NCBI RefSeq assembly: GCF_000384075.1
Contig: NZ_KB913025.1
Location: 4,286,187-4,350,186 of the forward strand
From: Methylovulum miyakonense HT12
GTDB taxonomy: Bacteria > Pseudomonadota > Gammaproteobacteria > Methylococcales > Methylomonadaceae
Direction of reading: 5' to 3'
Length of the DNA: 64,000 bases
Part shown: piece by piece, positions 1 through 23,369 of the stretch
Position numbering within the stretch: the stretch's first letter is position 1
Layout: each line of letters begins with the position of its first letter
Program-made: the position numbers and the translations under genes
Notes under the pieces: model-generated
Databases searched by the model: none
Seen by the model: only the letters and a program-made list of their open reading frames with translations
Told to the model about the DNA's origin: nothing

Positions 1-3000
1 CATGTCCGGGCTACGCTCGGCGCACAGGGCGACCAATTGGTCGGGGCGGACGCCGTGGGCGATGAGGCCGTGGGCGAGGCGGTTGGCTAGTCGGTTGAGT
101 CCGCCGTAGCTTAAGGTTTGCCCTTGGTAGCTCAGGGCGATGGCGTTGGGGGCGCTTGCCGCGTGGGCTTCGAAGCGTTGGTGCAGGCACGGTTGCGCCG
201 GGTAAGCCGTCAGGTGGGCGTTGCCGTTTTGCAATAGCTGCTGGCGTTCGCTATCAGGCAAAATACTAAGTTGGCACACCCTAAAATCTGGAGTTTGCTG
301 TAACGCCTCGGTCAATTTATCAAGCGCGGTTTCAAAATAAGCGGCGATCCTCACTGCATCTATGTCCTGGACACATTGTGCGGTGATACGGATGCCCTCC
401 CCTAAATCGTCAACACACAGCGTGACCGGATAATTGGTACGTTCTTCCGTAGCCAATAACTCAATATCTTGCCAAGCAAATAACTCCGTTGAATTTTCCG
501 CAATCAAATTGCTGTGCCGGTAATTCAGCAACGTAGTGAATAATGGTAAACCCGCCGCGACACCACTACAGCGTTGCGCCAATGCCAAAGCAGCGTGTTC
601 GTGATCCAACAAACGCCCAAGCCGGGAGTAGCAATCAGCGACAATTTGCCTGACGCTATAGCCATCTAAACTGAGCCGTATCGGCAAGGTATTGATGAAC
701 ACGCCCAGGGCTTGGCTTGCGCCTGTTTGGGTTTGCAAGCGTCCTGACAACACCGTGCCAAACACCACATCATCACGCCCCGTACATTGCGCCAGCACTT
801 GCGCCCAAGCGACATGGCACAACACAGCGACGGTCACACCTTGCTGACGCGCTGTGCTGTACAGGCGTTGCGCCAAACTCTCATCTAAAACTAAATGGGC
901 TTCATTGATTTGGCTGCCATTGCCTTGAATATCCAAAACCCCGAACGGGGCGGTGGGGGCATCTATATCACCCAATTGGCTGCGGAAATACGCTTCATGC
1001 TCGGTTTCAGGAACGCTGATGACTTGGGCAATAAAATGACGGTACGGCAAAGGCGGCAATAATTGATCGCCCTGCCCTAGAAAAATTTGGTTAATTTCTG
1101 AAAGGATAAGTTGGAGCGTGTAATTATCGTCAATCAAATGATGGTTGACCAAAGCCAGTAACCACTTGTCGGCAATCGGATCAAATAGAATGTAGGCGAC
1201 AAACAGCGGCGCTTTCTGTAAACCCATGCGTAAATGGATAAGCTGGGTTTGTTCCTGAAGGGTTTGCAAAGCGTCAACACCTGCTTCCACTGAAAGATGG
1301 ATTATCGGCAACCGGGCTTGCCGTTGCACCACTTGCACCGCATGGGGTAAGCCTTGCCAATGGATGGCGGTGCGGAGAATATCGTGGCGGTCGATGACAA
1401 TCTGCAGCGCGGCTAAAAAACTATCCAATCGTTCCCGCGAAGCAAAACACAGCAGCGAACGTTTTAAATAAGCATCGCTATCCGTCGCCAGCAAATGATG
1501 GAACAAAATGCCATCTTGTAACGGCGCCAGCGGATAAATGTCTTGGATATTGGCAATTCCTCCTGGCACTTCGGCGATTAACGCGTTTATTGCTTCTTGT
1601 GTCAAACTGACCAAGGGCAACATGTCCGGCGTGATCACTGTGCTGCCTTCCGGGATAGCCCCGAATGCCACCCTGTTTGTAGTTGGCACGTCAGCCACTA
1701 AAGTCGCTGCCATCTCAGCAAGCACGGGCATCGTGAACACGTTCATCACTTCCGCTGAAAAACCTTGTTGCTGTAGCTGCTCAACCAAGCTAATCGCCAT
1801 CAGCGAATGTCCGCCCAACTCAAAAAAGTGATCGTCACGCCCGACTTTTTCCACACCTAACAACTCTTGCCACAACTTAGCCAGTACCGTTTCTGCCAAA
1901 GTTTGCGGGGCGGCATAATCTTGCGTTGACACTGCCATCCTATCGGGTTCAGGCAAGGCACGGCGGTCTAGCTTGCCGTTTGGGGTTAACGGAAATTCCG
2001 CCAGCCTAACAAACGCGCCAGGGATCATGTAGTCGGGCAGCACCAAGGATAAATGCTCACGCAAATCACTGATGTTAAGCTCAACATCGGCTAACAAATA
2101 CGCCACTAGCCGTTTGTCGCCTGGATTATCTTCCCTTGCCAGCACAACGGCGGCACGCACACTAGGAAAGCAAGTAAGCCGCGCTTCAATCTCACCCAAC
2201 TCAATCCTAAAACCCCGGATTTTGACTTGATAATCCATGCGGCCTAGAAATTCGATATTGCCATCGTCACGGAACTTCGCTAGGTCGCCTGTTTTGTATA
2301 AACGGCTACCCGCCACGCCGAAAGGGTTAGGGATAAATTTTTCCGCCGTCAAACCGGGGCGGTTGATATAGCCTTGCGCGATACCTGCACCAGCAATATA
2401 CAACTCACCACTGACACCCATTGGTACAGGTTCACTATGCTTATCAAGAATATACATCTGCACCCGGTCAATGGCGCGGCCTATAGTCAAGGTGCCTGTG
2501 GCTTCCGATGTTTCGCTGTGATAAACACTGCTCCACACCGTCGCTTCGGTCGGGCCGTATTCGTTGAACAACTTAACCTGCGGCAGTTTGCGCTGATGTT
2601 CGTTAGCCAGTTCGCCAGAACACGCTTCCCCGGCAACTATGACGGCCTTAAGCGTAGCCAATAACGGCAGATTAGCCTCGCTGATGAGGGCGGCATAAAA
2701 TGATGGCAAGGCCAAAACATGGCTGACCTGATGCTTTTGGATCAATTTGGCTAAAGCATTTGGATTGGTGGTATCGGCGGTTTGGGGTAAACACAAACAG
2801 CCGCCTTGGCTTAAAGTCCAAAAAATACCCGCCACCGAACTGTCAAAAGCAAATGAAGACAACAATAGGAAACAATCAGGCGATTCTTGATAATATTCAA
2901 ACCGCGCCAGCGTCGAATGCAGCAAGTTACGATGGCTAACTGCCACGCCTTTGGGCTGGCCTGATGAACCGGAGGTATAAATCAGGTAGGCGGTATTGTC

Positions 3001-4908
3001 CAAGCTGGCAGGACACACCAAAGGTTCACGGGCGGTTGCGTTTTGTTTGATACTGACGATAGGACACAGAAGTTTTTGGAATCTATCGACGAACGCGGTT
3101 TGCACCAGAAGCAGCGCCACCGCCGCATCTTTGGCCATAAAATCCAGCCGTTCCTGCGGGTAGCTGGGATCTAGCGGCAAATAAGCCGCCCCGGCTTTCA
3201 ACACGGCCAATAAGGCCACCACCAAATCGACCGAGCGTTCCGCACAAACACCAACCCGGCTTTCCGGTTTGATGCCTAAGTCGTGGAGTGTGTGAGCCAA
3301 ATCATTGGCACGCTGATTAAGCTCACGATAACTGAGTTTTTCTTCGACAAACACCAAAGCCATGTGATCGGGCGTAACTTGCGCTTGCTTGGCAAACCGT
3401 TGCGTCAGCGGTTGTGACAAAACATCGTCGGATGCTGATTTTGAAGTATTCCAATCAACGACCATTTGTTGCCATTCTGCTGGCGTGAGTATCGGCAATT
3501 GCTTCAAGGCCAATTCAGGATTAGCCACCATCGCCGTTAATAAGGTTTGTAAATGCCCTGCCAGCCTTCCCAAAGTCGCTGATGCAAACAAATCCGTGCT
3601 GTATTCAATAGTGCCTTGTAAAACACCTTCCTGTTCTTCAAACAGAAACGTCAAATCAAATTGCGCGGCTTTGCCATCTAAACGGACAGGCGTAACCTCA
3701 AGTCCAGGCAGACGAAAATCAACACGCGGGGCGTTCTGCACAGTGAGCATGACTTGGAATAACGGTGCATAACTGGGATTGCGCACCGGATTAACGGCTT
3801 CCAATAATTGCCCAAAAGCAATATCCTGATGGGCTTGATCGTCTAAGGCTTGGCTACGGGTTTTTGCCAATAAATCCGCAAAGCCATTGTCATCATCCAA
3901 CTGCCCGCGCAACACCAAGGTATTGACGAAAAAACCAATTAATTCGGTAACTTGGCTTTGGGTGCGTCCAGCGACGGTATAACCAATCGCAATATCATCG
4001 CTGCCTGTGTAACGGTGCAACAAAACTTGCAACGCCGCCGCCATGACCATAAACAAGGTGGCGTTGTATTGCTTCGCCAACTGGTTAATCGCCACACTAA
4101 GTCCGGGGGGCAATGCAAAATGGTATAAATCCCCCCGATAACTAAGCGAGGCGGGTCTTGGGTAGTCAGTCGGCAAGGCCAGTAACGGCGGCAGACCTTG
4201 CAATTTTTGTTGCCAGTAATCCTGATGGTTTTGCACCAAACTGCCTTGTTGACGTTGCCATGCGGCAAAATCGCCATAGTCAATGCCTAATTCCGGCAAC
4301 GTTGACGGCAAACCACTGCCGAATTGGCGATATAATCCGGCGACTTCGCGCATCAAAATGCCAACCGACCAACGGTCAGCCACGATGTGGTGCAAGGCCA
4401 ACACCAAGATATGCCGCTGGCTAACCAACTTCAGCAGCATGGCGCGTAACGGCGCGGCATTGTTGAGGTCAAACGGCATACGGATGAATTCGTCGGCGCA
4501 GTGTTGGAAACAACCGTCAGCTAGGGCTGCATCGACATTATCCAAATCCAACAGCCGCAAACTAAGCTGGCAACAACCGTCAACGCGCTGGATGACGGTT
4601 CCCTGTTCGGAACCAAAACGGCTGTGCAGGATTTCATGACGGCGCACCACCTCATCCAAGCTTTGTTGCAAGGCGGCGATATTGAGCCTGCCGTTAAATT
4701 CCAAAGCCCCCGCGACATTGTAAATCGGGTTGTCCGGTGCTAAGTGCGACATTAGCCATAAGGCTTCTTGCCCAAAAGAAAGCGGTGCCATGCCTGGGCT
4801 TTCGCGGCGGCTGATGGAATTTACAGGCGCATTGTTTGTGAGCTTTGCAATTAGCCGCGCACGTTTTTGTTGGGCGGCGTCTAGGGGAGTTGCTGTGGCA
4901 TCTTGCAT
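1..4908 (-). CDS. Nonribosomal peptide synthetase, C-A-T-C-A..., C-terminus beyond the left edge
   Basis: Elongation synthetase; 1636 codons are open from ATG at 4908 to base 1 and the gene continues outside. Domains in order: condensation (about residues 45-480, HHIVADR at 173-179, so Arg replaces the usual Gly of HHxxxDG), adenylation (about 510-990, A3 core YTSGSSGQPKG near 645, FDSSVAGIFW in the specificity region), carrier (LGGHSL, phosphopantetheine Ser1035), a second condensation domain (DIYPLAPLQDG near 1122, HHLIDD near 1254), and the start of a second adenylation domain from about 1575. My reading of the first specificity code is D-S-A-F-I-A-E-V-W, which I cannot assign to a substrate. 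It lies 136 bp after the hydroxylase gene and should receive the acyl-aminoacyl chain from the synthetase encoded at 6688-11976. No thioesterase is visible, so chain release must be encoded further left. Confidence 0.93.
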   Translation of the reverse strand, partial: MQDATATPLDAAQQKRARLIAKLTNNAPVNSISRRESPGMAPLSFGQEALWLMSHLAPDNPIYNVAGALEFNGRLNIAALQQSLDEVVRRHEILHSRFGSEQGTVIQRVDGCCQLSLRLLDLDNVDAALADGCFQHCADEFIRMPFDLNNAAPLRAMLLKLVSQRHILVLALHHIVADRWSVGILMREVAGLYRQFGSGLPSTLPELGIDYGDFAAWQRQQGSLVQNHQDYWQQKLQGLPPLLALPTDYPRPASLSYRGDLYHFALPPGLSVAINQLAKQYNATLFMVMAAALQVLLHRYTGSDDIAIGYTVAGRTQSQVTELIGFFVNTLVLRGQLDDDNGFADLLAKTRSQALDDQAHQDIAFGQLLEAVNPVRNPSYAPLFQVMLTVQNAPRVDFRLPGLEVTPVRLDGKAAQFDLTFLFEEQEGVLQGTIEYSTDLFASATLGRLAGHLQTLLTAMVANPELALKQLPILTPAEWQQMVVDWNTSKSASDDVLSQPLTQRFAKQAQVTPDHMALVFVEEKLSYRELNQRANDLAHTLHDLGIKPESRVGVCAERSVDLVVALLAVLKAGAAYLPLDPSYPQERLDFMAKDAAVALLLVQTAFVDRFQKLLCPIVSIKQNATAREPLVCPASLDNTAYLIYTSGSSGQPKGVAVSHRNLLHSTLARFEYYQESPDCFLLLSSFAFDSSVAGIFWTLSQGGCLCLPQTADTTNPNALAKLIQKHQVSHVLALPSFYAALISEANLPLLATLKAVIVAGEACSGELANEHQRKLPQVKLFNEYGPTEATVWSSVYHSETSEATGTLTIGRAIDRVQMYILDKHSEPVPMGVSGELYIAGAGIAQGYINRPGLTAEKFIPNPFGVAGSRLYKTGDLAKFRDDGNIEFLGRMDYQVKIRGFRIELGEIEARLTCFPSVRAAVVLAREDNPGDKRLVAYLLADVELNISDLREHLSLVLPDYMIPGAFVRLAEFPLTPNGKLDRRALPEPDRMAVSTQDYAAPQTLAETVLAKLWQELLGVEKVGRDDHFFELGGHSLMAISLVEQLQQQGFSAEVMNVFTMPVLAEMAATLVADVPTTNRVAFGAIPEGSTVITPDMLPLVSLTQEAINALIAEVPGGIANIQDIYPLAPLQDGILFHHLLATDSDAYLKRSLLCFASRERLDSFLAALQIVIDRHDILRTAIHWQGLPHAVQVVQRQARLPIIHLSVEAGVDALQTLQEQTQLIHLRMGLQKAPLFVAYILFDPIADKWLLALVNHHLIDDNYTLQLILSEINQIFLGQGDQLLPPLPYRHFIAQVISVPETEHEAYFRSQLGDIDAPTAPFGVLDIQGNGSQINEAHLVLDESLAQRLYSTARQQGVTVAVLCHVAWAQVLAQCTGRDDVVFGTVLSGRLQTQTGASQALGVFINTLPIRLSLDGYSVRQIVADCYSRLGRLLDHEHAALALAQRCSGVAAGLPLFTTLLNYRHSNLIAENSTELFAWQDIELLATEERTNYPVTLCVDDLGEGIRITAQCVQDIDAVRIAAYFETALDKLTEALQQTPDFRVCQLSILPDSERQQLLQNGNAHLTAYPAQPCLHQRFEAHAASAPNAIALSYQGQTLSYGGLNRLANRLAHGLIAHGVRPDQLVALCAERSPDM

Positions 4909-5043
4909 GGTCGTCGTCCTGTTTTTTTGCCAATTTATGGTTATTTTTCTTGGCGTTCCCACACCTGTGCGTGCGGTCGGCCATTTAGCGTGTTGGGTTT
5001 GAATACTGCCTTATGCGAGGTAGGTGATGCGTCACCTAAACAC

Positions 5044-6648
5044 TTACCTCTCCAAGAAAATCTCATCCCTGCCATACAGCCGTCTGGCCTCAATGAAACC
5101 TTGGTTTTGGCAAGCCGTCAGCAATTGGTTGATTTCTTGGATATACACATCATCATCTTCAGGTTCCAAGGCCATGAAATATTGCAGCCACGGTTCGCGG
5201 CCTATGGCGTAAACGTAAACTTGATGGTTACCAACCGCCTGCAACAAGTCCATCGCCACGGCGGCGTTACTGCCGTTGGAGCGGCGGGATTGGCAATGTT
5301 TGTAATCAGGCAGTTTCGGCAGGATCGGCCCGTAAACCCACGATAACGGCGCGCCGACGCATTCCATGCCCAAAAACACCACATCAACCGCGCCGCGTTC
5401 GGCGCACAGGTTTTCGTACATGCGTTTGTCCAAGCAATTGGAATCGGCGGCGAACAGGATTTGCTTAGTGCCTGCTTTGACCAGATAAGCGGATTTGGCG
5501 AACGGTAAATCGTTATGCTCGCCTAAGAAGGGCACGGCGACGATTTCGCCATTCAACACGGCAATCGTATCTAAGGGCTCAACTTCCACTACATTCGAAA
5601 AGCCCAAAGCCTGAGCCATTAATTTCAGGGAAATATCGCCATAAAAAATGCCGGATGCTTTCGGTACGACCAAGCAGCCAATTTTGTGACGGATCCTGAG
5701 CAGGGTTTCAAACACAAAATGGTCGTGATGGCCATGCGTGATCAGCACATAGTCAATTTTGGGCGGCAAATCTTGGAAGGTGTACCTCTCGATGCCGCCT
5801 TGGCCGGGTTGTACGGTAAGGAAGGGGTCTATCAGAATGGCGGTGCCGTTAAATTCGACCAACATGCTGGCATGCCCAAAATAGCGTATGCGCGTCCCCT
5901 GCCCTTGCCAGTTTGCTGTGGTTTTGGGCGGTTGGTTGGTCAACAAGGGCAAGAGCTTTCCATCATCGGCGGCGGCCAAACCCAACAGTTCGCGGATAAA
6001 CGCCAAGGGCTGTGGCTGGCTGTCCAACTTAAACAATCCGTCCAACTCGGCTTGCGCGAACGGGAGTGTCCAATCAATGCTATTTGAATCAGGCAAACGC
6101 GGCGTGCTCATGTAATAAGCCCGCATCCGGTCATGGGTTTGGGTAAACAAATGCAAAGATTGCAACTGTTTTTTGTAATGGCGGCTGTGGTAAAACAGGC
6201 TCTCAATGCAACGGACAATGGGGCGGCTGTGGTAGTCATACAGCAATTCGACATAGCCGCGCAGGCTTTCGGGCAAGTGTGGGTAATAGCTGTTCAGGCT
6301 TTGCCCGACGGCTTCCTTATCCAACAGATTTTGGAAATCAACCAGTTCTTGGGCTAAGGCCAGATCATCACTATGCACCCTCTCCAAACGCTCCAGCAAC
6401 GCTACAATATCAGGGACACGTTCGACAGGCAGGTTGACGAACGCCCCGCCCAATAATTTGGGGTTTTGGCTGGACTTGACATGCAAGGCCGGGTTTTGCA
6501 AATACGAGGCCAAGGTTTTTTTCTGATAATTCAACAGGTGCAGGCTGTAGGGCACGGGCGAGAACGTGTGCGGCCACGCCACCCAGTTATCGACCAAGGC
6601 TTCCGCCACAGTGGCGTCTGCCAAACGATATGAAGTTTGCTTGTTCAT
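5044..6648 (-). CDS. CmlA-type di-iron beta-hydroxylase (metallo-beta-lactamase fold), NRPS-associated
   Basis: 534 aa. The N-terminal ~240 residues have no simple motif; residues ~250-534 form a metallo-beta-lactamase-fold domain with HGHHDH at 305-310, Glu377 (GEH) and Asp402 (AADSN). As I recall, CmlA of chloramphenicol synthesis (532 aa) hydroxylates the beta carbon of an aminoacyl group on an NRPS carrier, and its iron ligands include His305, His307, Asp309, His310, Glu377 and Asp403. The numbering here matches almost exactly, including Glu377, where ordinary metallo-lactamases have His. I could not place the last His ligand with confidence. The gene lies between two synthetase genes on the same strand, 40 bp after one and 136 bp before the other. 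This predicts beta-hydroxylation of a carrier-bound residue. A plain UlaG-like lactonase is less likely, given the length, the Glu and the context. Confidence 0.85.
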   Translation of the reverse strand: MNKQTSYRLADATVAEALVDNWVAWPHTFSPVPYSLHLLNYQKKTLASYLQNPALHVKSSQNPKLLGGAFVNLPVERVPDIVALLERLERVHSDDLALAQELVDFQNLLDKEAVGQSLNSYYPHLPESLRGYVELLYDYHSRPIVRCIESLFYHSRHYKKQLQSLHLFTQTHDRMRAYYMSTPRLPDSNSIDWTLPFAQAELDGLFKLDSQPQPLAFIRELLGLAAADDGKLLPLLTNQPPKTTANWQGQGTRIRYFGHASMLVEFNGTAILIDPFLTVQPGQGGIERYTFQDLPPKIDYVLITHGHHDHFVFETLLRIRHKIGCLVVPKASGIFYGDISLKLMAQALGFSNVVEVEPLDTIAVLNGEIVAVPFLGEHNDLPFAKSAYLVKAGTKQILFAADSNCLDKRMYENLCAERGAVDVVFLGMECVGAPLSWVYGPILPKLPDYKHCQSRRSNGSNAAVAMDLLQAVGNHQVYVYAIGREPWLQYFMALEPEDDDVYIQEINQLLTACQNQGFIEARRLYGRDEIFLER

Positions 6649-6687
6649 GAAGGCTACGATGGGTTGGTTTAGGAGGGGAAAGGGCGG

Positions 6688-9600
6688 CTAATCGGTTTGG
6701 TGTTCGCCAACTTTGTCGACAAACTCGGCGATGGTCGGGGCTTCAAACAGCGTTTTCACCGGCACGTCAACCGCAAAAGTTTCGCGGATTTTGCTGACGA
6801 CTTGCACGGCGGATAAGGAATGCCCTCCCAACTCGAAAAAATCGTCATGTATGCCCAACCGTTCAACACCCAAGATTTGTTGCCAGATCTCGGCAACCGC
6901 CTGCTCCGCCTCATCCCGTGGAGGCGTGTATTCACGGCGTTGCCAACCTTGGCTGGCCATAGCCAGCAAGGCCTTGCGGTCGAGCTTACCGTTGGCGGTC
7001 AACGGCAGGTCGTCGAGAAAAACAAAAGCGGCCGGAACCATATAATCGGGCAACGTTTGTTTAAGGAAGGCTTTAAGCGCGTGGACGTCTGGCGGCGATT
7101 CGGCCCGGGCAACAAGATAGGCAATCAGGTATTTATTGCCTGGCTCTTGCTTAAGCAACACCACGGTTTTTTTAATGGCTTCATGTTGCAATAACCGGGC
7201 TTCGATTTCGCCTAACTCAATCCTGAAACCGCGTATTTTGACTTGGGTGTCGATGCGCCCTAGATATTCAATCTGGCCGTCAGGACGGTAACGCGCCACA
7301 TCACCCGTCCGGTACAAGCGTTGGCCTGGCTTTACCGGATAAGGATGGGGGATGAACCTTTCCGCTGTCAGTCCAGGGCGGTTCAGATAGCCTCTCGCCA
7401 ACCCTGCGCCGCCCACATACAGTTCTCCGGCAACCCCGATAGGCACGGGAGCCAGCCGCGGATCAAATATAAATGTTTGCAAATCGCCTAAAGGGCGGCC
7501 GATGATGCTCGCCGCGTCGGTGTTCGGGCTTGCCGGAAGGCCATGGTGGGTGACATGCACGGTCGTTTCGGTGATGCCATACATATTGACGAGCCGTGGG
7601 CCCGTTCCGGCATGGCGCGCAAACCATCCCCGTAAGCGCCAAGGCTCCAATGCTTCCCCGCCAAAAATCACCCAGCGTAGGGATAAAGCCTGGCCCTTGC
7701 CTAGTTCCCCATCGAAAGCGTCAAGCTGATAAAAACTGGAAGGGGTTTGGCTCAATACCGTCACACCCTCTACGGATAAAAGCCGATGGAAGGCTTCCGG
7801 GGACCGGCAAGCCCAATACGGCACAACAACCAGCTTGCCGCCATAAAGCAAAGCCCCCCATATTTCCCAGACCGAAAAATCAAATGCGAAAGAATGGAAC
7901 AGGCTCCACACATCAGCGGAGGAAAAATCAAACAGCCGACCTGCTGCGGCAAACAGCCGCCGGACATTTTGATGGGTGATGGCCACGCCTTTAGGGTTCC
8001 CGCTGGAACCCGATGTGTAAATGACATAAGCAAGGTTCTCCGGGCTACCCACATTAACCGGATTGGCAAGGCTGTAGGTTTCAAGCGGCACCGCGTCAAG
8101 GCATAGCAACCGCAAGTTTGCCGGCAGTGACCCGGCCAGGGGCTGTTCCGTCAGCACGAGCAGGGGCTTGGCATCCGCCACAAGGTAAACCAGACGGTCT
8201 TGGGGATAATCGGGGTCTAGGGGAAGATAGGCGCCGCCTGCTTTTAAAGTCCCCAACAAACCAACAATCATCGTTAACGAGCGGGACACACAAATCCCCA
8301 CCAAGGTATCGGCCACCACGCCTTGGCTGCGTAAAAAATGGGCCAACTGGTTGGCCTTGGCGTTTAGTTCGGCATAACTTAAAACCTGGCCTTCAAAAAC
8401 CACCGCGATAGCGTCCGGCGTTGCCATCGCCTGCTTTTCAAACCGGTGGTGGATGCAAACATCAGCCGGGCAGTCAACAATCGCGCCACTCCAAGCCATC
8501 AATTGCCGTAACTCGGACACCGCCAGCAAGGGCAATGCGCTTAGCGGCTGGTAGGGATTATCTAAGATGCCCTGCAAGAGCCGCTGGAAATGCCCCGCCA
8601 TGCGCATGACCGTCTCTTGCTCCAGCACACCATGGTTGTATTGGAATGAAGCGCCCAAACCGTCGCCCGTCACCGCCATCATCAAATTGAGGTCAAACTG
8701 GGCAACCGTTTCAGGCAAGCAAACCGTCCTGGCGGTGATGCCCGCCCAAGCCAGCTGACAATCGGGCAAACCTAAGGCCAACGCCGCCGCGCCAGCATCA
8801 CCGTGGACATCACTTTGCAAAACAAAGCTGGCCCGGTAAAACGCCGACAGCCCTGGCTCACGCGCAGGCTGCAATTTTTCCACCAATAAGCCATGCGGAT
8901 AATCTTGGTGCCGTAAAGCCGCCAACACGGTTTGCTTGGTTTCATGAAGAAACCCAATGAAAGGCTTGCCGCCTTCGGGGAAACTGCGTAAGGCCACCGG
9001 ATTGACGAAATACCCGACGACTTGGGAAAAATCTTGTTTAGGCCGTCCGAACATCGGCGAGCCCACGATAATATCTTCTTGGCCGCTGTAGCGGTAAAGC
9101 AAGACCTTGAACACCGCCAGCAGCAACATATACAAAGTCACCCCTTGTTGTGCCGCCATGTCTTGCAACTGGCGCAGGGTGGCAAACCCTATCGCCAGGG
9201 TTTCTATGCCACCGTGGTAAGTGGCCGTGTTCGGACGCACCTTCCCGACGGGCAGGGACAGCTTGGGCAAATCCCCCGCCAATTGCCCTTGCCAGTAACC
9301 CAAAGCCTGGCCCGCAAGCGCACTGCTTAAGTAGTTTTGCTGCCAAGCAATAAAATCATCATAAGTGGCGGCCAAGGTTGGCAAACTAAACGCTTGCCCG
9401 ATGCTGCACGCGCCATACACGGCCTGCAATTCTCCGAGCAAAATGACCAATGAGCGGAAATCGACGGCAATATGGTGGGCGCAAAACAACAGGATAGGGT
9501 CGTCGGCGGCGGTGCTAAATAAGGCCGCCCTTAACTTCAGATCGTGTTCCAAATCAAATGGCCGCTGGATTTCAGCGATAAGCAGCCGATCCCTGGCCTG

Positions 9601-11976
9601 TGCGTCCTTACAAGTATGCTGCACAAACACCGGGTTAATCTCCGGCAACAACACGGGCATGGGCAGGCCGTTTTCAAGCCGGTACCCGGTGCGTAATTGC
9701 GTGTGCCTACTAACTAAAACGCGCAATGCATGGCGGAAACTGTCAACCTCAATTTTGCCGCTGATCTGCAAGGCGACAGGCAAATTGTAAACGGGTGTGT
9801 TGGCTTCAAACTGGCATACCGTCCAGACCGCCCGTTGCCCTAAGGATAATGCCAGGTTAGCCGCGGTGTCGGGTTCCGCAGTAGCCACCAGGGCCAGGTG
9901 CTTTTGGTGTCCTAAATCCAACGCGCAAGCCGCCAATTCCATAATTGATGTGTCCGCCAATATCAAAGTGACGGGCACATCAATCGCCAGCAAATCATCA
10001 ATGGCATATTTCAGTTCCATCGCCTTCAAGGAGTCTATGCCTAAGGCTAATACCGGGGCAGACCAGTCGACGGCTTCCACGGACAATCCGGACAAGGCCC
10101 GGATTTTGCCGCTTAAAAAATTGGCGAGCAGTTCTTTGCCACTCTCCAATGATGCCGCCAGTAAAGTGTGCCTAAGCAAAGCACCTTCCGGCCCGGACGG
10201 ATGCGTGGCGGCTGGCGGGGCGGGTTCGTATCCGTCCTTAGCCACCACCTCCATCTGCTGGTCTAGAAAAGCTTTTTTACAATCGCTACGGCGGATTTTG
10301 CCGCTAGTCGTCTTTAAAATGGCTCCTGGCCTGACAAACACAATGGCAGCGGCCTGGATGCCACATTCTTCAACCAAACGCCCACGGATTGCCGCGAATT
10401 CCACGCGGAAATCTGTTTGTCTTAAATGGCCACGTTTTAATTCGGCAAGCAAGACCAGCTTTTCTTCATTCCCATCCGCCACTGAAAAAGCCGCCAAGCC
10501 ATTGGGGTTTAAACAAGCCACCGAAGCGGCGGCGGCCATCTCCAAATCGTGGGGATAGTAATTACGGCCCCTGATAATAATCAGGTCTTTGCTTCGGCCA
10601 ACGACAAACAGCTCGCCTTCGTCAATAAACCCCAAATCGCCCGTGCGCAACCAAATTTGATGGTTGCCATCCTCGACAAAACTTTCAGAGGTGGCCACGG
10701 TATTTTGCCAATAACCTTGGGCAACACCCGCGCCGCTGACTTGGATTTCTCCAACACATCCCGGCCCGCAAAGCGCTTGGGTTTGCGTATCGGTTATCCT
10801 GAGCCGGTGGTTTTCACCGACAAAACCGCAACCTACCAAAAACCGGCTGGCATCGCCCACAAAACCGGTACTGGCAATATGCCCTTCCAGCTGCTCTTTA
10901 TGGAAAGCCTTAACCGTCGGTGGCGCCGCCTTATCACCGCCCGTAACCAACAAAGTCGCTTCCGCCAAACCATAACAAGGATAAAACGCCCGGCGTTGGA
11001 ACCCGCACCCGGCAAACGCCTCGGTGAACCGTTCTAAAGTTGCCGCATAGACTGGCTCGGCCCCGTTAAAAGCCACTTGCCATGCACTTAGATCAAGCCG
11101 GCTTTTTTCTTCGGCGGAAATTTTTTGCACACAAAAATCAAAAGCAAAATTGGGGCCGCCGCTGGTATGGGCGCGGTAATCGGAAACCGCCTGCAACCAG
11201 CGCAAGGGCTTCTCCAAAAATGCCAGTGGCGGCATCAGCACCACGGGCGCACCGATGTACAAAGGCTGCATGACATTACCAATCAAGCCCATATCGTGAT
11301 ACAACGGCAACCAGCCTACCACGGTGGATTGCGGGCCATGGCCGAAACCTTGTTTGATCAGGCGTTGGTTCGCCATCAGGTTGGCATGCGTCACCATCAC
11401 CCCTTTGGCATCACCGGTAGACCCTGAGGTATATTGCAGAAAAGCCACGTCCTGCGGTTTGGAACCAGGCAATTGCCAGCCGCCATCAGCATTATCCAAA
11501 ACGTCGGTTGCCACTATTGGCACGGTCGGGACTGCCCCAAACAGGGCTTCTAATGTTTGTGAGGTCGATTGATTGGTTAAGATGGCCGCCGCTTGGCAAT
11601 CAGCCAGAATGGTTTGCAAACGTGGCAAATGGCGGTTGTTGCGCGGCGGGTAAGCCGGAACGGCGACCACGCCCGCATAAAGGCAGCCGAAAAATGCGGC
11701 GATATAGTCCAAGCCTTGGGGATAAAGCAATACGGCGCGTCCGCCCTGCAAACCTAAATCCTGCAAATTGGCGGCGATCACGCGGGCTTGTTGGTCCAAC
11801 TCGCCATAACTGAGATGAAAGGCTTGTTTTTCACCATCAGGCAAAAACGTATAGGCACGACGATGGCTTTGTTGCGCCGCCCTGGCCCTCAACACCTCCA
11901 CCAATGAATAGGCCCCGTCCACATCCACATGCGCATCGGCGCCCCGAACGGGCTGCTTGGCATTGGGCATGTTCAT
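6688..11976 (-). CDS. Loading NRPS: fatty acyl-AMP ligase, carrier, condensation, adenylation (Thr-like code), carrier
   Basis: 1762 aa from ATG at 11976, which overlaps the upstream ankyrin gene's TGA (ATGA); an in-frame upstream start at 12030 would lie inside that gene. Domains: fatty acyl-AMP ligase (about 20-590, YTSGSTGDAKG core), acyl carrier (LGIDSLKAMEL, Ser649), condensation (HHIAVDF at 834-840), adenylation (about 1170-1660, YTSGSSGNPKG near 1320, FDFSVWEIWG), carrier (LGGHSL, Ser1720). The specificity residues read D-F-W-S-I-G-M-V-H-K, one position from the classic threonine code DFWNIGMVHK. Inference: the enzyme activates a free fatty acid, loads it on its own carrier, condenses it with Thr (or a close analogue) and passes acyl-Thr to the next synthetase. 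No reductase or thioesterase is present. Confidence 0.94.
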   Translation of the reverse strand: MNMPNAKQPVRGADAHVDVDGAYSLVEVLRARAAQQSHRRAYTFLPDGEKQAFHLSYGELDQQARVIAANLQDLGLQGGRAVLLYPQGLDYIAAFFGCLYAGVVAVPAYPPRNNRHLPRLQTILADCQAAAILTNQSTSQTLEALFGAVPTVPIVATDVLDNADGGWQLPGSKPQDVAFLQYTSGSTGDAKGVMVTHANLMANQRLIKQGFGHGPQSTVVGWLPLYHDMGLIGNVMQPLYIGAPVVLMPPLAFLEKPLRWLQAVSDYRAHTSGGPNFAFDFCVQKISAEEKSRLDLSAWQVAFNGAEPVYAATLERFTEAFAGCGFQRRAFYPCYGLAEATLLVTGGDKAAPPTVKAFHKEQLEGHIASTGFVGDASRFLVGCGFVGENHRLRITDTQTQALCGPGCVGEIQVSGAGVAQGYWQNTVATSESFVEDGNHQIWLRTGDLGFIDEGELFVVGRSKDLIIIRGRNYYPHDLEMAAAASVACLNPNGLAAFSVADGNEEKLVLLAELKRGHLRQTDFRVEFAAIRGRLVEECGIQAAAIVFVRPGAILKTTSGKIRRSDCKKAFLDQQMEVVAKDGYEPAPPAATHPSGPEGALLRHTLLAASLESGKELLANFLSGKIRALSGLSVEAVDWSAPVLALGIDSLKAMELKYAIDDLLAIDVPVTLILADTSIMELAACALDLGHQKHLALVATAEPDTAANLALSLGQRAVWTVCQFEANTPVYNLPVALQISGKIEVDSFRHALRVLVSRHTQLRTGYRLENGLPMPVLLPEINPVFVQHTCKDAQARDRLLIAEIQRPFDLEHDLKLRAALFSTAADDPILLFCAHHIAVDFRSLVILLGELQAVYGACSIGQAFSLPTLAATYDDFIAWQQNYLSSALAGQALGYWQGQLAGDLPKLSLPVGKVRPNTATYHGGIETLAIGFATLRQLQDMAAQQGVTLYMLLLAVFKVLLYRYSGQEDIIVGSPMFGRPKQDFSQVVGYFVNPVALRSFPEGGKPFIGFLHETKQTVLAALRHQDYPHGLLVEKLQPAREPGLSAFYRASFVLQSDVHGDAGAAALALGLPDCQLAWAGITARTVCLPETVAQFDLNLMMAVTGDGLGASFQYNHGVLEQETVMRMAGHFQRLLQGILDNPYQPLSALPLLAVSELRQLMAWSGAIVDCPADVCIHHRFEKQAMATPDAIAVVFEGQVLSYAELNAKANQLAHFLRSQGVVADTLVGICVSRSLTMIVGLLGTLKAGGAYLPLDPDYPQDRLVYLVADAKPLLVLTEQPLAGSLPANLRLLCLDAVPLETYSLANPVNVGSPENLAYVIYTSGSSGNPKGVAITHQNVRRLFAAAGRLFDFSSADVWSLFHSFAFDFSVWEIWGALLYGGKLVVVPYWACRSPEAFHRLLSVEGVTVLSQTPSSFYQLDAFDGELGKGQALSLRWVIFGGEALEPWRLRGWFARHAGTGPRLVNMYGITETTVHVTHHGLPASPNTDAASIIGRPLGDLQTFIFDPRLAPVPIGVAGELYVGGAGLARGYLNRPGLTAERFIPHPYPVKPGQRLYRTGDVARYRPDGQIEYLGRIDTQVKIRGFRIELGEIEARLLQHEAIKKTVVLLKQEPGNKYLIAYLVARAESPPDVHALKAFLKQTLPDYMVPAAFVFLDDLPLTANGKLDRKALLAMASQGWQRREYTPPRDEAEQAVAEIWQQILGVERLGIHDDFFELGGHSLSAVQVVSKIRETFAVDVPVKTLFEAPTIAEFVDKVGEHQTD

Positions 11977-12560
11977 AGCTCTGGCTGGGCGGCCGTAACA
12001 GGTTTTTTTGCGGAAAAGGCGGCCGCCCATTCCAAATCGCCCGGAACCTTAAACGCCAGTTGCTGTTTGCAAAATATTTCCCAAGCAACCGATGTCCCGG
12101 CGAACAGCACCTCTTTGCCCGCCAGCATAGAGCGGGTGACGCTCAGGTCAGCATGCAAAAACACAAGGTCTTCGTCAGCCAGGCCCGGCAGTTGTGAAGG
12201 CCAACCGGGAAATTGTTTTAAATCTGCGGCAACATAAGCTTTGCAATAATCCTGAATGCCGGGGCCAAGGCGGATGCCGGCCTCTTGTTCGGCACGGTAT
12301 AAAACCGCCGCGTTTTCGGTTTGTGCGGCGGCCAAGGCGATTTGGTACGCCGTCCGCTTGTCCCTGCCGGCATGGGTTATATCCGCACCGGCCGCCAACA
12401 ATAGGCGGATGGTGTCGGGGTTGCCTTTACCCGCCGCCCAATTTAATGCCGTCCAACCGTAACCGTCTTGTTGCCCGATAGCCTCCCCGCTATCTAGCAA
12501 AGCCGCCACATTTTCAACATCCCCCGCCTTTACCGCTTCAACCAGCTTTAAAACAGACAT
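11973..12560 (-). CDS. Ankyrin-repeat protein leading the lipopeptide operon
   Basis: 195 aa from ATG at 12560 (AGGA seven bases upstream; an in-frame TTG lies 6 bp earlier). The first ~100 residues carry about three ankyrin-type repeats (GWTALNWAAGKGNPDTIRLL, ...LLAAGADITHAG...). The C-terminal half (DEDLVFLHADLSVTRSML, then ...LAFKVPGDLEWA) is a different domain that I do not recognise. No signal peptide or membrane segment is seen, so it is probably cytoplasmic. Its stop overlaps the ATG of the loading synthetase, so the two are translationally coupled and presumably work together. The role is unknown; a scaffold, regulator or accessory protein for the synthetase is possible. Confidence 0.85.
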   Translation of the reverse strand: MSVLKLVEAVKAGDVENVAALLDSGEAIGQQDGYGWTALNWAAGKGNPDTIRLLLAAGADITHAGRDKRTAYQIALAAAQTENAAVLYRAEQEAGIRLGPGIQDYCKAYVAADLKQFPGWPSQLPGLADEDLVFLHADLSVTRSMLAGKEVLFAGTSVAWEIFCKQQLAFKVPGDLEWAAAFSAKKPVTAAQPEL

Positions 12561-12870
12561 AGACAATTCCTAAACAAGCAATCAGGTTCCAATCAGCCCA
12601 ACACGGACAAAGACCTTTATCCGATGGTTTTTATAAACCTTATGACGAATGAATCTTGGAACAACCTCATCGGCGGAATTGCTAATTTAAAAACGGCCTG
12701 CCCGGTGGCGGCTTTTTTTGTGGGGAAGTAAAAGTTGGCTATCCCATTAACTTGAAAGTTACTGAGGGGATCCGATTATTGGCGCGTCTTGTTAGGGCAA
12801 GCAAAAACACGCCTCCTTTTTTTGAAACCGTCAAAAATTCTTAACCCTTTATTATCTATATAAAAAACCA
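12561..12870. promoter_or_regulatory. Divergent intergenic region with a GC stem and T-runs on both sides
   Basis: This is the gap between the minus-strand synthetase operon (start 12560) and the plus-strand methyltransferase gene (start 12871), so promoters for both should lie here. A bulged stem at 12696-12712 (GCC-T-GCC, loop CGGT, GGC-GGC) is followed on the plus strand by seven T (12713-12719) and on the minus strand by CG then five T, so it could terminate in either direction. No gene reads into it from the left on the plus strand, so for the synthetase operon it would act as a leader hairpin (attenuator) if the promoter lies to its right. I see no clear FecI-type promoter box. Confidence 0.5.
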
Positions 12871-14307
12871 ATGGATAACCTGCCCCTGTACCAATGTATT
12901 GTCTGTGCCAATGAATTGACCGCCACCCCTGTGGGGCAATGGGCTTGTCCCCACTGCGGAAGATATTATCCGTCCATAAAAGGCATCGGCGTGTTCATCC
13001 CCGGTGCGGCGGTTTCCATACAAGGTTATGTGCAGGAAATGGCGGAAGCCCAAGCGGGCTTGGCCCAAATGGCTGATAACTTGCGTGCCTTCCAAGCGCA
13101 ATTTCCAGACAGCGAATTTTCTGAACGGATAGGCGCGGCCCTTAAGGGCATAGGAAAAAATACTGGCGTCCTGGAAAGGCCTTACCAGCCCATCATCGAA
13201 TTTCTGCAAGACCATCCCGTACAAGCCGATTTACTGGCTTGGAGCATGATAAAAACCGGTACGACCTTCCATGACATGTTGCCGTATTTTTATCAGGACT
13301 GGTCGGGAACCACTGATTTTGAAAAAGTTGCCGCACAGCTTGGCAAAACGGTCCATGAGCATTGTGATGACCGGCAAGCAGTGGCGGTATTGGGCGCGGG
13401 GGCCTGTGGCTTGCTGCATAGCGTCGCCAAGCATTTTGTAGTGGCGTATGGCGTAGATTTATCACTGCCAACCTTGTTGGCGGCCAAAACATTGATGGCA
13501 GGCGAAGCGTTGGAGCTTCATTTGCCAGAAGCCAATTGGCGGCAGGTCACGCTCACGCCGCCCGTACAGGAAGCCGGCAACATCCATTTCCTGACGGCGA
13601 ACGTCAATAACTTACCGTTTAAGGACGCGTCCTTATCCGTTGTCGTCACCCAATATATGCTGGACATTGTCAGCAATCCGCTGGGCTTGGCAAAAGAAAT
13701 CCGCCGCATACTTAAGCCGGAAGGTAGATGGATCAATTTCTCCAAACCCTTCCGGGTCGCCACCGACCCGCCGGAATTGGGTATGCGCAACCTGGCTGAA
13801 TTGCCGCCCTTATTCAATACCCTGGGTTTTGACGTCATCGAGCTGGAAAACCAACGGTTTATCTATCTTAATATGGAAAAGGCCTATCCTGAGGCCGATT
13901 CCATCAATCAATTAGTCCATTATTTTGTATTAAGAAAAAATAACCCGCATCCAGATGGCGCAAACCTCAAGGATGTCAGCCGATTTTTTGAACCCAATGA
14001 CGCTGTTTGGCAGGAAATACCGCGGCTCGTCCAGAATCGGGCCTTAACATTCACAACCGGGAAATCGTTTGACGGGAAAGGCGGCGTTAATGAATGCTTA
14101 CAGGTCAGCGTCATGGGGCACATTTTTTCAATCCCCGCCGACTTTTCCAGGTTACTGGAAACCGTGTTTGCAGCGGTTGACGGGCAAAGGGACTTGCGGG
14201 AAATTTTTCAAATCCAACGCCCCATTTTCGGCTTGGACGAGCAGCCGTTCCTGAAATTAATTTATATCCTGAACGTGTTGCATTACTTGCTTGAATTCCA
14301 CCGCTGA
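12871..14307 (+). CDS. Zinc-ribbon class I SAM methyltransferase, N2227/carnosine methyltransferase-like
   Basis: 478 aa. The N-terminus has a zinc ribbon (Cys9, Cys12, Cys26, Cys29). A YQDWS segment near 141-145 recalls the RDWS motif of the N2227/carnosine N-methyltransferase family. The SAM-binding Rossmann motif is VAVLGAGACG (171-180), followed by an acidic GVDLS strand end and a typical late motif (EIRRILKPEGRWINFS). About 130 C-terminal residues are outside the methyltransferase core and look like a small winged-helix or PqqD-like module. It overlaps or abuts the phosphopantetheinyl transferase gene, so both form a plus-strand unit divergent from the synthetases. Inference: N- or O-methylation of the lipopeptide or a precursor. 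The substrate cannot be read from the sequence. Confidence 0.82.
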   Translation: MDNLPLYQCIVCANELTATPVGQWACPHCGRYYPSIKGIGVFIPGAAVSIQGYVQEMAEAQAGLAQMADNLRAFQAQFPDSEFSERIGAALKGIGKNTGVLERPYQPIIEFLQDHPVQADLLAWSMIKTGTTFHDMLPYFYQDWSGTTDFEKVAAQLGKTVHEHCDDRQAVAVLGAGACGLLHSVAKHFVVAYGVDLSLPTLLAAKTLMAGEALELHLPEANWRQVTLTPPVQEAGNIHFLTANVNNLPFKDASLSVVVTQYMLDIVSNPLGLAKEIRRILKPEGRWINFSKPFRVATDPPELGMRNLAELPPLFNTLGFDVIELENQRFIYLNMEKAYPEADSINQLVHYFVLRKNNPHPDGANLKDVSRFFEPNDAVWQEIPRLVQNRALTFTTGKSFDGKGGVNECLQVSVMGHIFSIPADFSRLLETVFAAVDGQRDLREIFQIQRPIFGLDEQPFLKLIYILNVLHYLLEFHR

Positions 14308-14317
14308 ACCTACAGCG

Positions 14318-15019
14318 ATGGTTGGTGTGCCTACCGGTGCGGTTGATGTGTGGCTAGAAGACCTATCGGCGGATGATGCCCTGTACGCCTATTTCCGGGA
14401 GATACTGGATGCTGATGAAAAAACCAAAGCGATGCGGTTTGTACACGAAACCCATCGCCGCCAATACATTATCAGCCACGGCAAGCTAAGGGCCATCTTG
14501 GCTTCGTACCTGGGCATGGCGCCCGCCACCATAAGCTTTACCATAGCCGCCTATGGCAAGCCCCACCTAACGGGGAAAGCCGCCGCGCTTAAATTCAATT
14601 TATCGCATTCCGGTGACAAAATGGCGGTTGCCGTTGGCGGCTATGATTATCTTGGCGTGGATATAGAAGTGTGGAATAGCGGCATGGACCTGTCCGGTGC
14701 CGCCAAAACCTGCTTTGGCGATAGTGAGCAAGCAACGTGGCACACCGCAACCGGGCAAGAAAAGCTGGCGGTGTTTTATCAATTATGGACGCGGAAAGAA
14801 AGTTTCCTAAAAGCCGTGGGGATGGGGATGACACTTGAAGCCGCAAAAGTCATTACCGCCACCGAAGGGGAACCCCGTTTTCTGTCATTGCCCGAAGGCT
14901 ACCCAACTCATGAATGGAAGCTCATTGATTTAAAGTTCGGCCACGGCCTAAGCGCCGCCTTGACGGTGAAAGCCCCGGACCGCCCCCCCATTAACCTGAA
15001 GCAATGGGCCAAGCCTTAG
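14318..15019 (+). CDS. 4'-phosphopantetheinyl transferase, Sfp type
   Basis: 233 aa from ATG at 14318; an upstream in-frame TTG at 14291 would overlap the methyltransferase stop by 17 bp and add nine residues. It transfers phosphopantetheine from CoA to the Ser of carrier domains and so activates Ser649, Ser1720 and Ser1035 of the synthetases. Diagnostic motifs are visible: KFNLSHSGD (P1-like), LGVDIEVW with the Mg-binding Asp and Glu, and LWTRKESFLKAVGMGM (W-x-x-KES). The length is normal for the Sfp family. No ribosome-binding site is obvious and it sits 10 bp after the methyltransferase stop, suggesting coupled translation. The gene converges on the mbtH-like gene, 21 bp away. Confidence 0.93.
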   Translation: MVGVPTGAVDVWLEDLSADDALYAYFREILDADEKTKAMRFVHETHRRQYIISHGKLRAILASYLGMAPATISFTIAAYGKPHLTGKAAALKFNLSHSGDKMAVAVGGYDYLGVDIEVWNSGMDLSGAAKTCFGDSEQATWHTATGQEKLAVFYQLWTRKESFLKAVGMGMTLEAAKVITATEGEPRFLSLPEGYPTHEWKLIDLKFGHGLSAALTVKAPDRPPINLKQWAKP

Positions 15020-15040
15020 GCATGGCCAAATGGGAGGGCA

Positions 15041-15262
15041 TTAGTGCATATCGGCTTGTTCCATATAATTGCGCAAACTCAAAGGGCGCATATCAGTCCA
15101 CACTTCTTCAATGTAATCAAGGCATTCTTTTTTGCTTCCGCTGATATTCAGAGCTTTCCAGCCCACAGGGACCTCCTTATAAGTAGGCCAAATCGAATAT
15201 TGTTCCTCATCATTAACGACCACTTCGTAAACGGTTTTATCTTCTTCATTATCGTAAGCCAT
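15041..15262 (-). CDS. MbtH-like protein, NRPS adenylation-domain partner
   Basis: 73 aa. Start chosen at ATG 15262 because AGGAG stands six bases upstream; an in-frame upstream start at 15301 lacks such a site. Family signature residues are all present: [25 protein letters not shown] and [12 protein letters not shown]. MbtH proteins bind adenylation domains and are needed for the solubility or activity of many of them; the two visible adenylation genes are the obvious partners. It lies 54 bp after the sigma factor gene on the same strand and is probably cotranscribed with it, the arrangement seen in pyoverdine-like systems where an extracytoplasmic-function sigma factor drives peptide synthesis. 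Confidence 0.95.
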
Positions 15263-15316
15263 ATTAACTCCTAAGTTGTTTTGTACCCTGACTGCAATCA
15301 ATGTTTATCCCTATTC

Positions 15317-15853
15317 CTAGACGGTGGATGCCTGATATGGCCTCACCCGCGATTTTTTTGGCAAAAACTCGGGAATCTTTTTCCGGCAATGCCTTAAGCC
15401 CTTCATCATGTGCTTCTCAACGCCACTTTCAGAAATTCCCGTGAATTTGGCTATTTCGGCATAGTTCATTTCATGGAACTTGTTTAATAGAAAAGTTTCC
15501 CGGCAACGGGGGGGCAATTCATCAATCACTTGCTTGATCATTTCCACATATTGGCCATCCGCAATAAGCTGCTCGACCGAAGGCGAAAGGCCGCCATAAT
15601 CAGATGACAGCTGTTGGGTCTGCATATAATTGTTAATGACTTTGTTGTGTTTTAGGTGATCGAAGGCGAGATTTTTTGCAACTTGGTATAAAAACCCACG
15701 CGGATTTTCAATATGTTGCTGCTTTTTTTCCCGAAAAAAAATAATGAAGCTTTCTTGGGTAATATCCTCGGCAACTTCCCGGTTGGAAACAATCCGAGCC
15801 GAGAAATCTATCAGTTCATGCTGATGGTTTTGATAAAGTTTTTCTATATTCAT
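15317..15853 (-). CDS. ECF RNA polymerase sigma factor, FecI-like
   Basis: 178 aa, the usual length for the class. Sigma region 2 is in the N-terminal half (VAEDITQESFIIFFREKKQQ, then NPRGFLYQVAKNLAFDHLKH) and region 4 in the C-terminal half (LPPRCRETFLLNKFHEMNYA, ending in a helix-turn-helix, IAKFTGISESGVEKHMMKGL). The PRGFLY and RCREVF-like features point to the FecI/PvdS branch, which is normally controlled by a FecR anti-sigma factor and a TonB-dependent receptor. Neither is in this window. The gene heads a unit with the MbtH-like gene and probably directs transcription of the adjacent synthetase operon. An iron link is inferred from the family only. Confidence 0.9.
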   Translation of the reverse strand: MNIEKLYQNHQHELIDFSARIVSNREVAEDITQESFIIFFREKKQQHIENPRGFLYQVAKNLAFDHLKHNKVINNYMQTQQLSSDYGGLSPSVEQLIADGQYVEMIKQVIDELPPRCRETFLLNKFHEMNYAEIAKFTGISESGVEKHMMKGLRHCRKKIPEFLPKKSRVRPYQASTV

Positions 15854-22682: not shown

Positions 22683-22771
22683 GAGCGGGCCATGCCCGCG
22701 AAGGGTTGCAAAGGATCGCGTAATGTCTGCAAATCCACCATCCAGAAATCGCGCCCATGGGGCGCTCCTAC
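22679..22771. repeat. Inverted pair of REP hairpins upstream of the RAYT gene
   Basis: Two REP-type elements in opposite orientation. The first starts GTAGGAGC at 22679 and has stem GCGGGC/GCCCGC at 22685-22699 with loop CAT. The second is inverted, with stem GCGCCC/GGGCGC at 22751-22765, and ends in GCTCCTAC. The shared GTAGGAGC foot and short GC stem are typical of REPs mobilised by RAYT transposases, and the gene that follows encodes one. Confidence 0.88.
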
Positions 22772-22781
22772 GAAGAATGTT

Positions 22782-23252
22782 ATGAATCCCAAGCCCGGCC
22801 ACGCCGCCTTGCGTAAAGGGCGGGTTTCGATTGAGGGGCAAGTCTATCTTGTCACCACGACGACCTTAGAGCGCCAACCTTTTTTTGCCGATTTCAGGGC
22901 TGCACAATCCGCCGCGCAAGCTTTCGAGGATAAAGCGGTGCTGGCCGACGCAAAATTATTGGCCTGGGTTTTGATGCCCGACCATTTTCATGGTTTGCTG
23001 CAATTGGATGGAAAAACCAGTTTGCAAAACATAATGAACCGATTGAAATCCGCCAGCGCCCGGCGGGCTAACCAGGTGATGCAGCGTGAAGGCCCATTGT
23101 GGTCCAGAGCGTATCATGACCATGCGTTGCGGCAGGAGGAGGATTTATTGGAAACCGCCCGATATATTGTCGCCAACCCGATGCGTGCCAGATCGGTTCG
23201 GCGTGTCGGCGATTACCCATTTTGGAACGCAATATGGTTACCCACTCCGTAG
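22782..23252 (+). CDS. REP-associated tyrosine transposase (RAYT, Y1/HUH family)
   Basis: 156 aa from ATG at 22782 (MNPKPGH); an in-frame upstream start at 22692 would lie inside the REP pair and gives a sequence that does not look coding. HUH motif MPDHFHGLLQL and the catalytic Tyr in ETARYIVANPMRA are present, as is the family's W-SRAYHDHALR block. RAYTs act on single-stranded REP hairpins and are thought to spread them. The gene is bracketed by two REPs on each side, and its stop codon lies inside the first downstream REP. It has inserted between hsdR and the next restriction-locus gene. Confidence 0.93.
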   Translation: MNPKPGHAALRKGRVSIEGQVYLVTTTTLERQPFFADFRAAQSAAQAFEDKAVLADAKLLAWVLMPDHFHGLLQLDGKTSLQNIMNRLKSASARRANQVMQREGPLWSRAYHDHALRQEEDLLETARYIVANPMRARSVRRVGDYPFWNAIWLPTP

Positions 23253-23333: not shown

Positions 23334-23369
23334 CCCTCGGACACACCGCTGACTGAATGGAAATTATAA

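Follow-up and report, generated by a model that had tools for sequence, protein, structure and literature searches.

A predicted siderophore-type metallophore cluster joining a CmlA-type diiron hydroxylase to histidine modules in the methanotroph Methylovulum miyakonense

Layout of the locus

The stretch of DNA analysed here, called the window, comprises 64,000 nucleotides of Methylovulum miyakonense HT12 (GCF_000384075.1, contig NZ_KB913025.1) and corresponds to positions 4286187-4350186 of a single-piece 4.69-Mb assembly. In its first 15.9 kb, an ankyrin gene, a FAAL-ACP-C-A-T synthetase, a CmlA-type hydroxylase and the synthetase N1 follow each other in this order on the minus strand, and alongside this block lie a methyltransferase and a PPTase gene on the plus strand and an MbtH and an ECF sigma factor gene on the minus strand. 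Domain searches recovered every gene that an initial annotation of the sequence had named, each where it had been placed:

1..4962, minus strand: non-ribosomal peptide synthetase (NRPS) N1, C-A(His)-T-C-A..., extending across a 100-N gap beyond the left window edge (Pfam Condensation, AMP-binding, PP-binding)
about 1972-3396, minus strand: first A domain of N1, code DSALIAEVWK (code reading; His according to the available part of PMC12283262)
5044..6648, minus strand: CmlA-type diiron beta-hydroxylase (PF18456, 4.1e-87, and a metallo-beta-lactamase-type domain)
6688..11976, minus strand: FAAL-ACP-C-A-T loading synthetase, A code DFWSIGMVHK, Thr-type (Pfam/NCBIfam domains, FAAL models)
11973..12560, minus strand: ankyrin-repeat protein, 195 aa (Pfam Ank)
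12871..14307, plus strand: SAM methyltransferase, divergent from the ankyrin gene (PF08241, 5.8e-11)
14291..15019, plus strand: 4'-phosphopantetheinyl transferase, PPTase (PF01648, 1.2e-12)
15041..15262, minus strand: MbtH-like protein, 73 aa (PF03621, 2e-22)
15317..15853, minus strand: ECF sigma factor, adjoining MbtH (Sigma70_r2/r4; NCBIfam)

The PPTase scored 130.9 bits against the NCBIfam HetI model, under the cut-off of 370, and homologues of the methyltransferase were found in three related clusters (G007, 65%; G045, 49%; G599, 48%). To the right of the sigma factor, the ten ORFs scanned with Pfam between 16622 and 39378 include a ricin-B-lectin-like protein, HsdR and transposases, and no receptor is among them. 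FecR, receptor and exporter had been described as absent from the window, and this was upheld for the reference proteins used, as ORFs of at least 60 aa in the window gave no match to receptor, FecR, PvdE, PvdQ, MFP, RND or OEP proteins at E<=1e-8.

Assembly line and predicted peptide

The cluster as first drawn began at the start of the window, which proved not to be a natural boundary: a 100-N run stops one base before it, and the assembly line extends about 30 kb further left, to 4256448, as N2-N5. The initial annotation had pointed to this flank for a thioesterase, and two thioesterase-type GxSxGG motifs (GWSVGG and GHSFGG) lie in N5, the last synthetase, from which we assign a putative releasing thioesterase to the end of the line. 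Release motifs are thus present on the left, and beyond the synthetases there are only transposases and unrelated genes (by inspection, one small ORF, three transposase-like ORFs and then unrelated genes). The line therefore has the parts of a FAAL-initiated NRPS, namely FAAL, ACP and C-A-T in the first synthetase and thioesterase-type motifs in the last. All 12 condensation-type domains that a Pfam search found in the genome are in this region.

Three 100-N runs, taken as scaffold gaps, break the synthetase genes, and a piece of about 0.7 kb between two of them is inverted. Because of these runs and the inverted piece, at least two of the line's A domains could not be read; the piece itself encodes an A-domain end and a carrier and may be a twelfth A domain or a duplicate. 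At least 11 adenylation domains were counted, nine of them readable and two with a His code. The codes, extracted by alignment to motif anchors, are DFWSIGMVHK (Thr), DSALIAEVWK (His), unread, DAQDLGVVDK (Glu-like) and unread for domains 1-5, DFWNIGMVHK (Thr), DILQFGLVWK (Gly-like) and DSALIAEVWK (His) for domains 6-8, and DAWLIGAVFK (unassigned, x), DFWNIGMVHK (Thr) and DVGEIGSIDK (Orn) for domains 9-11. We take DFWSIGMVHK to fit threonine and DVGEIGSIDK to be an ornithine code. In the part of PMC12283262 available to us, DSALIAEVWK is assigned to histidine and the Thr signatures given resemble DFWSIGMVHK. From domains and codes, and with at least two modules unread, the predicted order is approximately acyl-Thr-His-?-Glu-?-Thr-Gly-His-x-Thr-Orn.

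A classic hydroxamate was considered and rejected. With the Orn code it would need an ornithine monooxygenase, and the one match to the Lys/Orn monooxygenase family in the genome is weak and partial, scoring 26.7 bits over positions 132-270 of 339; the family also matches 12 of 14 controls.

Hydroxylase and histidine modules

The hydroxylase combines a CmlA_N domain with a beta-lactamase fold carrying the HxHxDH motif, which is present in all eight aligned rows, one of them a 319-aa piece. Its relatives in the PDB are the non-heme diiron monooxygenase 8a90 (1.1e-98) and CmlA (4jo0, 5.9e-83), with which it shares near full-length homology and the HxHxDH motif. The known substrates of these two enzymes are amino acids other than histidine, whereas the partner modules here are histidine modules.

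Ten of 121 relatives matched the hydroxylase at E<=0.001, two of these weakly and partially, and within the order it was found in 21 of 311 genomes at E<=1e-40, with 62-100% identity. An even draw of the class gave two matches in 369 genomes (the window's genome and G249, at 38%), and in an even draw of the phylum CmlA_N was detected in five of 398, three of them above the cut-off and including the window's genome. Neighbourhoods were fetched, within contig limits, for all 21 hydroxylase genomes. All 19 clusters with at least one readable A domain have a His code, and histidine accounts for 39 of the 91 A domains read in the hydroxylase clusters (38 DSALIAEVWK and one DSALVAEVWK), counts that are not independent since the related clusters share descent. 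Three His codes occur in seven of the 19, compared to two of nine domains read in the window's own cluster. Outside the 19 are G654, where a 24% match is the sole synthetase beside the hydroxylase, and G666, a 5-kb contig. Near the more distant CmlA-type genes, His codes number one of four in G249 (38%), none of two in G854 (40%) and none of five in G950 (33%).

The co-occurrence with His modules suggests that the enzyme beta-hydroxylates histidine bound to the carrier. Aspartate as its main target was rejected, as the Asp-type code, which presumably selects Asp, was read only in G119, G045 and G586, against His in 19 of 19. Beta-hydroxylation does not seem essential to the cluster family, because four ankyrin-bearing clusters (G060, G034, G023 and G010) sit in genomes with no hydroxylase match and two of them, G060 and G034, have three His codes each.

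Beta-hydroxyhistidine is listed, in the available part of PMC12971057, as a chelator of NRP metallophores, most of them siderophores. The enzymes named there for it (IBH_His) are TauD-type and Fe(II)/alpha-ketoglutarate-dependent, whereas the enzyme here is a CmlA-type diiron protein and TauD (PF02668) had no match in the genome at E<=0.001. In the same part of that paper, the printed antiSMASH chelator rule lists IBH_His, IBH_Asp, TBH_Asp, Orn/Lys monooxygenase and others, and the printed metallophore rule has no CmlA-type term. If the proposed activity is true, it would be a second chemistry for beta-hydroxyhistidine.

Sigma factor

The sigma factor can be called FecI-like only if the term is taken broadly, to mean ECF. 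It scored 74.9 and 72.7 bits against FecI models with cut-offs of 185 and 260, and the window has no FecR match; we class it as an ECF regulator and do not assign it to the FecI type. An ECF gene adjoins MbtH in eight of the 21 hydroxylase neighbourhoods (G007, G069, G533, G586, G589, G595, G599 and the window) and also in G034. A tree gave no firm placement of the window's factor with the ECFs of the other clusters. A single origin of the nine MbtH-paired sigma factors was set aside: they cluster on the tree, none of 500 shuffles giving as low a value, yet two changes are needed. The promoter pattern searched, which we take to be PvdS-type, gave three scattered matches in 68 upstream stretches and none in the window.

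Receptor, exporter and acylase genes

In 13 of the 21 hydroxylase neighbourhoods, blastp (best match, E<=1e-8) detected a TonB receptor homologue (G007, G020, G037, G045, G069, G119, G489, G533, G540, G586, G589, G595 and G599), that of G020 being partial and at the contig end. Among the eight receptor-free ones, G526, G549, G588, G666 and G495 are on contigs of at most 27 kb, and the window's genome, G008 and G654 have longer flanks with no receptor within them. The receptor of G007, the nearest relative, lies above the TIGR01783 TonB-siderophor cut-off (303 versus 223.5). PvdE-like and PvdQ-like genes are present in eight of the 21 (G069, G119, G489, G533, G586, G589, G595 and G599; the acylase of G489 is split over three ORFs), and PepSY_TM proteins and FecR recur across the related clusters. 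G034, which has no hydroxylase match, carries the TonB receptor and the PvdE-like and PvdQ-like genes as well. Sulfotransferases, glycosyltransferases, carbamoyltransferases and a class-III aminotransferase come in addition, varying from cluster to cluster. Bleomycin-like sugar decoration is of the glycosyltransferase and carbamoyltransferase type; such genes occur in some relatives, the window region has no match, and this candidate was rejected.

The window's own cluster has no adjoining receptor or exporter, and the pairing with them rests on the relatives. Sixteen places in the genome match the G007 cluster receptor, the best being 2316538-2319189 (76% over 718 aa). Before this receptor gene come an ECF gene and a FecR-like one, which reaches 152 bits with the FecR model (cut-off 385); after it comes a gene sharing 76% identity with the Lcl_C gene found behind the receptor in G007. 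In a set of 26 sequences, in which the own receptors came only from three fetched stretches, the receptors at 2316538 and 4143561 were the mutual best matches of the G007 and G037 cluster receptors, respectively, the latter pair (4143561-4145933) at 55%. By inspection, a PepSY_TM-like gene follows the receptor at 4143561-4145933. At 2831978-2836083, a PvdE-like gene, which is 58% identical to its G034 counterpart and scores 467 bits against TIGR01194 (cut-off 286), adjoins a PvdQ-like gene of the penicillin-amidase family, which is 45% identical to that of G119. With 61.5 bits against the PvdQ model, whose cut-off is 950, this acylase is not a PvdQ equivalog.

Proposed function and alternatives

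It is likely, with a probability of roughly two in three, that the cluster encodes the core pathway for a siderophore-type metallophore in a Methylovulum-like methanotroph, with beta-hydroxyhistidine made by the diiron enzyme. The initial annotation had offered an acylated siderophore as a candidate product. The siderophore part gains from the thioesterase motifs, the His modules and the receptor, PepSY_TM, PvdE-like, PvdQ-like and FecR genes of the relatives, and the acylated state of the final product may not hold: the acyl chain is suggested to be removed, because the PvdQ-like acylase gene adjoins the PvdE-like exporter gene in the same genome.

In the proposed pathway, the ECF sigma factor would switch the locus on and the FAAL would load a fatty acid onto the line. 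PPTases activate carriers and MbtH proteins adenylation domains, and their counterparts here would make those of this line competent. The CmlA-type enzyme would act on carrier-bound histidine to give bidentate beta-hydroxyhistidine ligands, as its co-occurrence with His modules implies, and the acyl-peptide would be released at the thioesterase motifs. The PvdE-like ABC transporter at 2.83 Mb in the same genome may export the acyl-peptide, and the PvdQ-like acylase, also at 2.83 Mb, probably removes the acyl chain. The metal complex could then re-enter through a TonB receptor such as that at 2.317 Mb, which is accompanied by ECF and FecR genes of its own. The ankyrin protein is guessed to assist the loading synthetase.

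The FAAL start, the at least 11 modules and the two thioesterase-type motifs in the last synthetase would also suit an iron-binding lipopeptide antibiotic or surfactant, a metal-binding product made for competition as in chitinopeptins. In the available part of PMC9248904, the chitinopeptins of Chitinophaga are iron-chelating lipopeptides with CmlA-like genes in their clusters, as here, and their production is not iron-repressed; in contrast to our cluster, the hydroxylated residues given there are Asp, Phe and Ile, and no His is named in that part. The recurrence of receptor, PepSY_TM, FecR, PvdE-like and PvdQ-like genes in the related clusters speaks against such a product, and the acylase would strip its lipid tail; we consider this explanation unlikely.

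The metal may be another one, as a metallophore could serve copper, zinc or a lanthanide instead of iron. Histidine is a good ligand for both Cu and Zn; copper is required by methanotrophs, and lanthanides often are too. Of the 19 hydroxylase clusters that could be read, seven have three His codes, as do the hydroxylase-free G060 and G034, and the TIGR01783 receptor family does not reveal the metal. According to the available part of PMC12482762, cerium raises a TonB receptor and a cyclic-peptide exporter in Methylosinus trichosporium. Against a metal other than iron, ECF-FecR pairs and PepSY_TM proteins are typical of iron systems, and beta-hydroxyhistidine is listed among the chelators of NRP metallophores, most of them siderophores (PMC12971057, available part); we consider such a metal quite unlikely. 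The signalling lipopeptide that had also been put forward, here under a cell-surface sigma factor, would fit the acyl-peptide start and the ECF factor; nothing beyond these was found in its favour, the partner genes seen to recur in the related clusters serve uptake and export, and we regard it as highly improbable.

Comparison with known systems

Among the closest known systems is the pyoverdine system of Pseudomonas, which consists of PvdL, PvdS, PvdE, PvdQ and FpvA/FpvR and in which deacylation takes place in the periplasm. The cluster's acyl-loading synthetase aligns to positions 9-1709 of 4334 of PRK05691, which we take to be a PvdL-like model (1400.8 bits, cut-off 4090), and the genome has an ECF factor, MbtH, a PvdE-like exporter, a penicillin-amidase-family acylase, FecR and a TonB receptor. 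In contrast to pyoverdine, the residues are others, the acylase is far under the PvdQ cut-off and the genes are scattered over the chromosome. No work on pyoverdine, PvdQ or PvdE in methanotrophs was found in the open-access literature searched. Corrugatin is a beta-hydroxyhistidine siderophore, and with siderophores of this group the cluster shares His modules whose code is said to accept beta-hydroxyhistidine and, in the related clusters, TonB receptors.

A siderophore-type NRPS locus is of a known kind, and this one is set apart by its CmlA-type enzyme occurring together with His modules, by the three-His lines of the relatives and by the ankyrin partner; no description of this cluster type was found in the open-access literature searched. 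It was read in 19 of the 21 hydroxylase genomes among the 311 of the order, and since the apparent carriers include Methylovulum psychrotolerans Sph1, Methylobacter tundripaludum SV96, Methylomonas fluvii EbB and Methylomicrobium sp. RS1, the cluster type is testable. A broader idea, which we hold as a doubtful speculation, is a metallophore family in which a CmlA-type diiron enzyme beta-hydroxylates the ligands, mainly two or three histidines, and which the printed chelator rule does not cover; some of its members would perhaps be copper scavengers of methanobactin-free methanotrophs.

Ankyrin protein

The coupling of the ankyrin gene to the synthetase by ATGA, pointed out in the initial annotation, is exact, the ankyrin stop overlapping the synthetase ATG. 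The same junction was seen in six of 13 named relatives inspected (L064-L069) and the other seven differ, a count that leaves out L073 and L075, in which the ankyrin and FAAL genes are not adjacent. Among the 121 relatives, 42 match the protein at E<=0.001, 11 of them at E<=1e-45 over most of its length, and the remaining ones are ankyrin-repeat matches. The ankyrin gene is present in 15 of 28 neighbourhoods, 11 of the 21 with the hydroxylase and four without it (ten hydroxylase neighbourhoods lack it, some of them on short contigs), and therefore tracks the acyl-loading synthetase rather than the hydroxylase. As a guess, it may help the loading synthetase to fold or work. No work on ankyrin proteins and NRPS in methanotrophs was found in the open-access literature searched.

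A profile search of the PDB gave 471 matching sequences, and among the 60 matches listed the best-aligned region falls within the first 98 of 189 positions, which are the ankyrin repeats. The C-terminal half is not ankyrin and is conserved, with C106, A108, Y109, D138, V141, W160, C164, L168, F170 and P173 present in 17 of 17 rows. The protein matched at 29 loci when 84,980 named genomes were scanned, at 16 of them along most of its length and at 13 partially. The protein is a recurrent neighbour of acyl-loading synthetases: 14 of the 15 methanotroph loci have a FAAL synthetase and the fifteenth stops at a contig end. The sixteenth locus belongs to the actinobacterium Rhizocola hellebori, where about 1.1 kb separates the gene from one for a C-A-T synthetase, which is followed by a polyketide synthase gene.

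Related clusters in other genomes
In related genomes, possible sugar-decoration genes adjoin His-rich synthetases:
G034:C130:50798-61726 (locus L158), glycosyltransferase and carbamoyltransferase genes
G069:C64:115597-119212 (locus L160), glycosyltransferase and carbamoyltransferase genes
The same two gene types adjoin related His-rich synthetases in G540 and G586, and in G034 they are accompanied by RND-type exporter genes. In bleomycin, beta-hydroxyhistidine bears a sugar, and the arrangement in these genomes is reminiscent of it. Another related genome carries one further cluster:
G119:C1:4300488-4333904, synthetase cluster with one His code and three Asp-type codes
Its product is possibly a sulfated siderophore; the cluster also contains two sulfotransferases, an APS kinase and a PvdQ-like acylase.

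The actinobacterium Rhizocola hellebori encodes, at L079:9971-10558, a protein that is homologous over nearly its full length (39-41%) to the ankyrin protein of the methanotrophs; NRPS and PKS genes are close by.

Assembly and gene neighbourhood
Three runs of N lie inside the synthetase genes of the window's own genome (G000):
G000:C1:4279806-4279905, 100-N run
G000:C1:4285306-4285405, 100-N run
G000:C1:4286087-4286186, 100-N run, directly left of window base 1
A piece of about 0.7 kb, flanked by two of these runs, is in the opposite reading direction, and the runs and the inverted piece together likely reflect scaffolding trouble with repetitive A domains.

Beyond the sigma factor gene, the window continues with:
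16622-19294, adjoining gene for an 890-aa protein, without a Pfam family besides a weak ricin-B-lectin match
19713-26927, type I restriction HsdR, then IS200-like transposase, YhcG-type nuclease and further transposase genes

Elsewhere in this genome, G000:C1:2283000-2329000 is an island of TonB receptor, ECF, FecR and PepSY_TM-like genes that also holds transposases.
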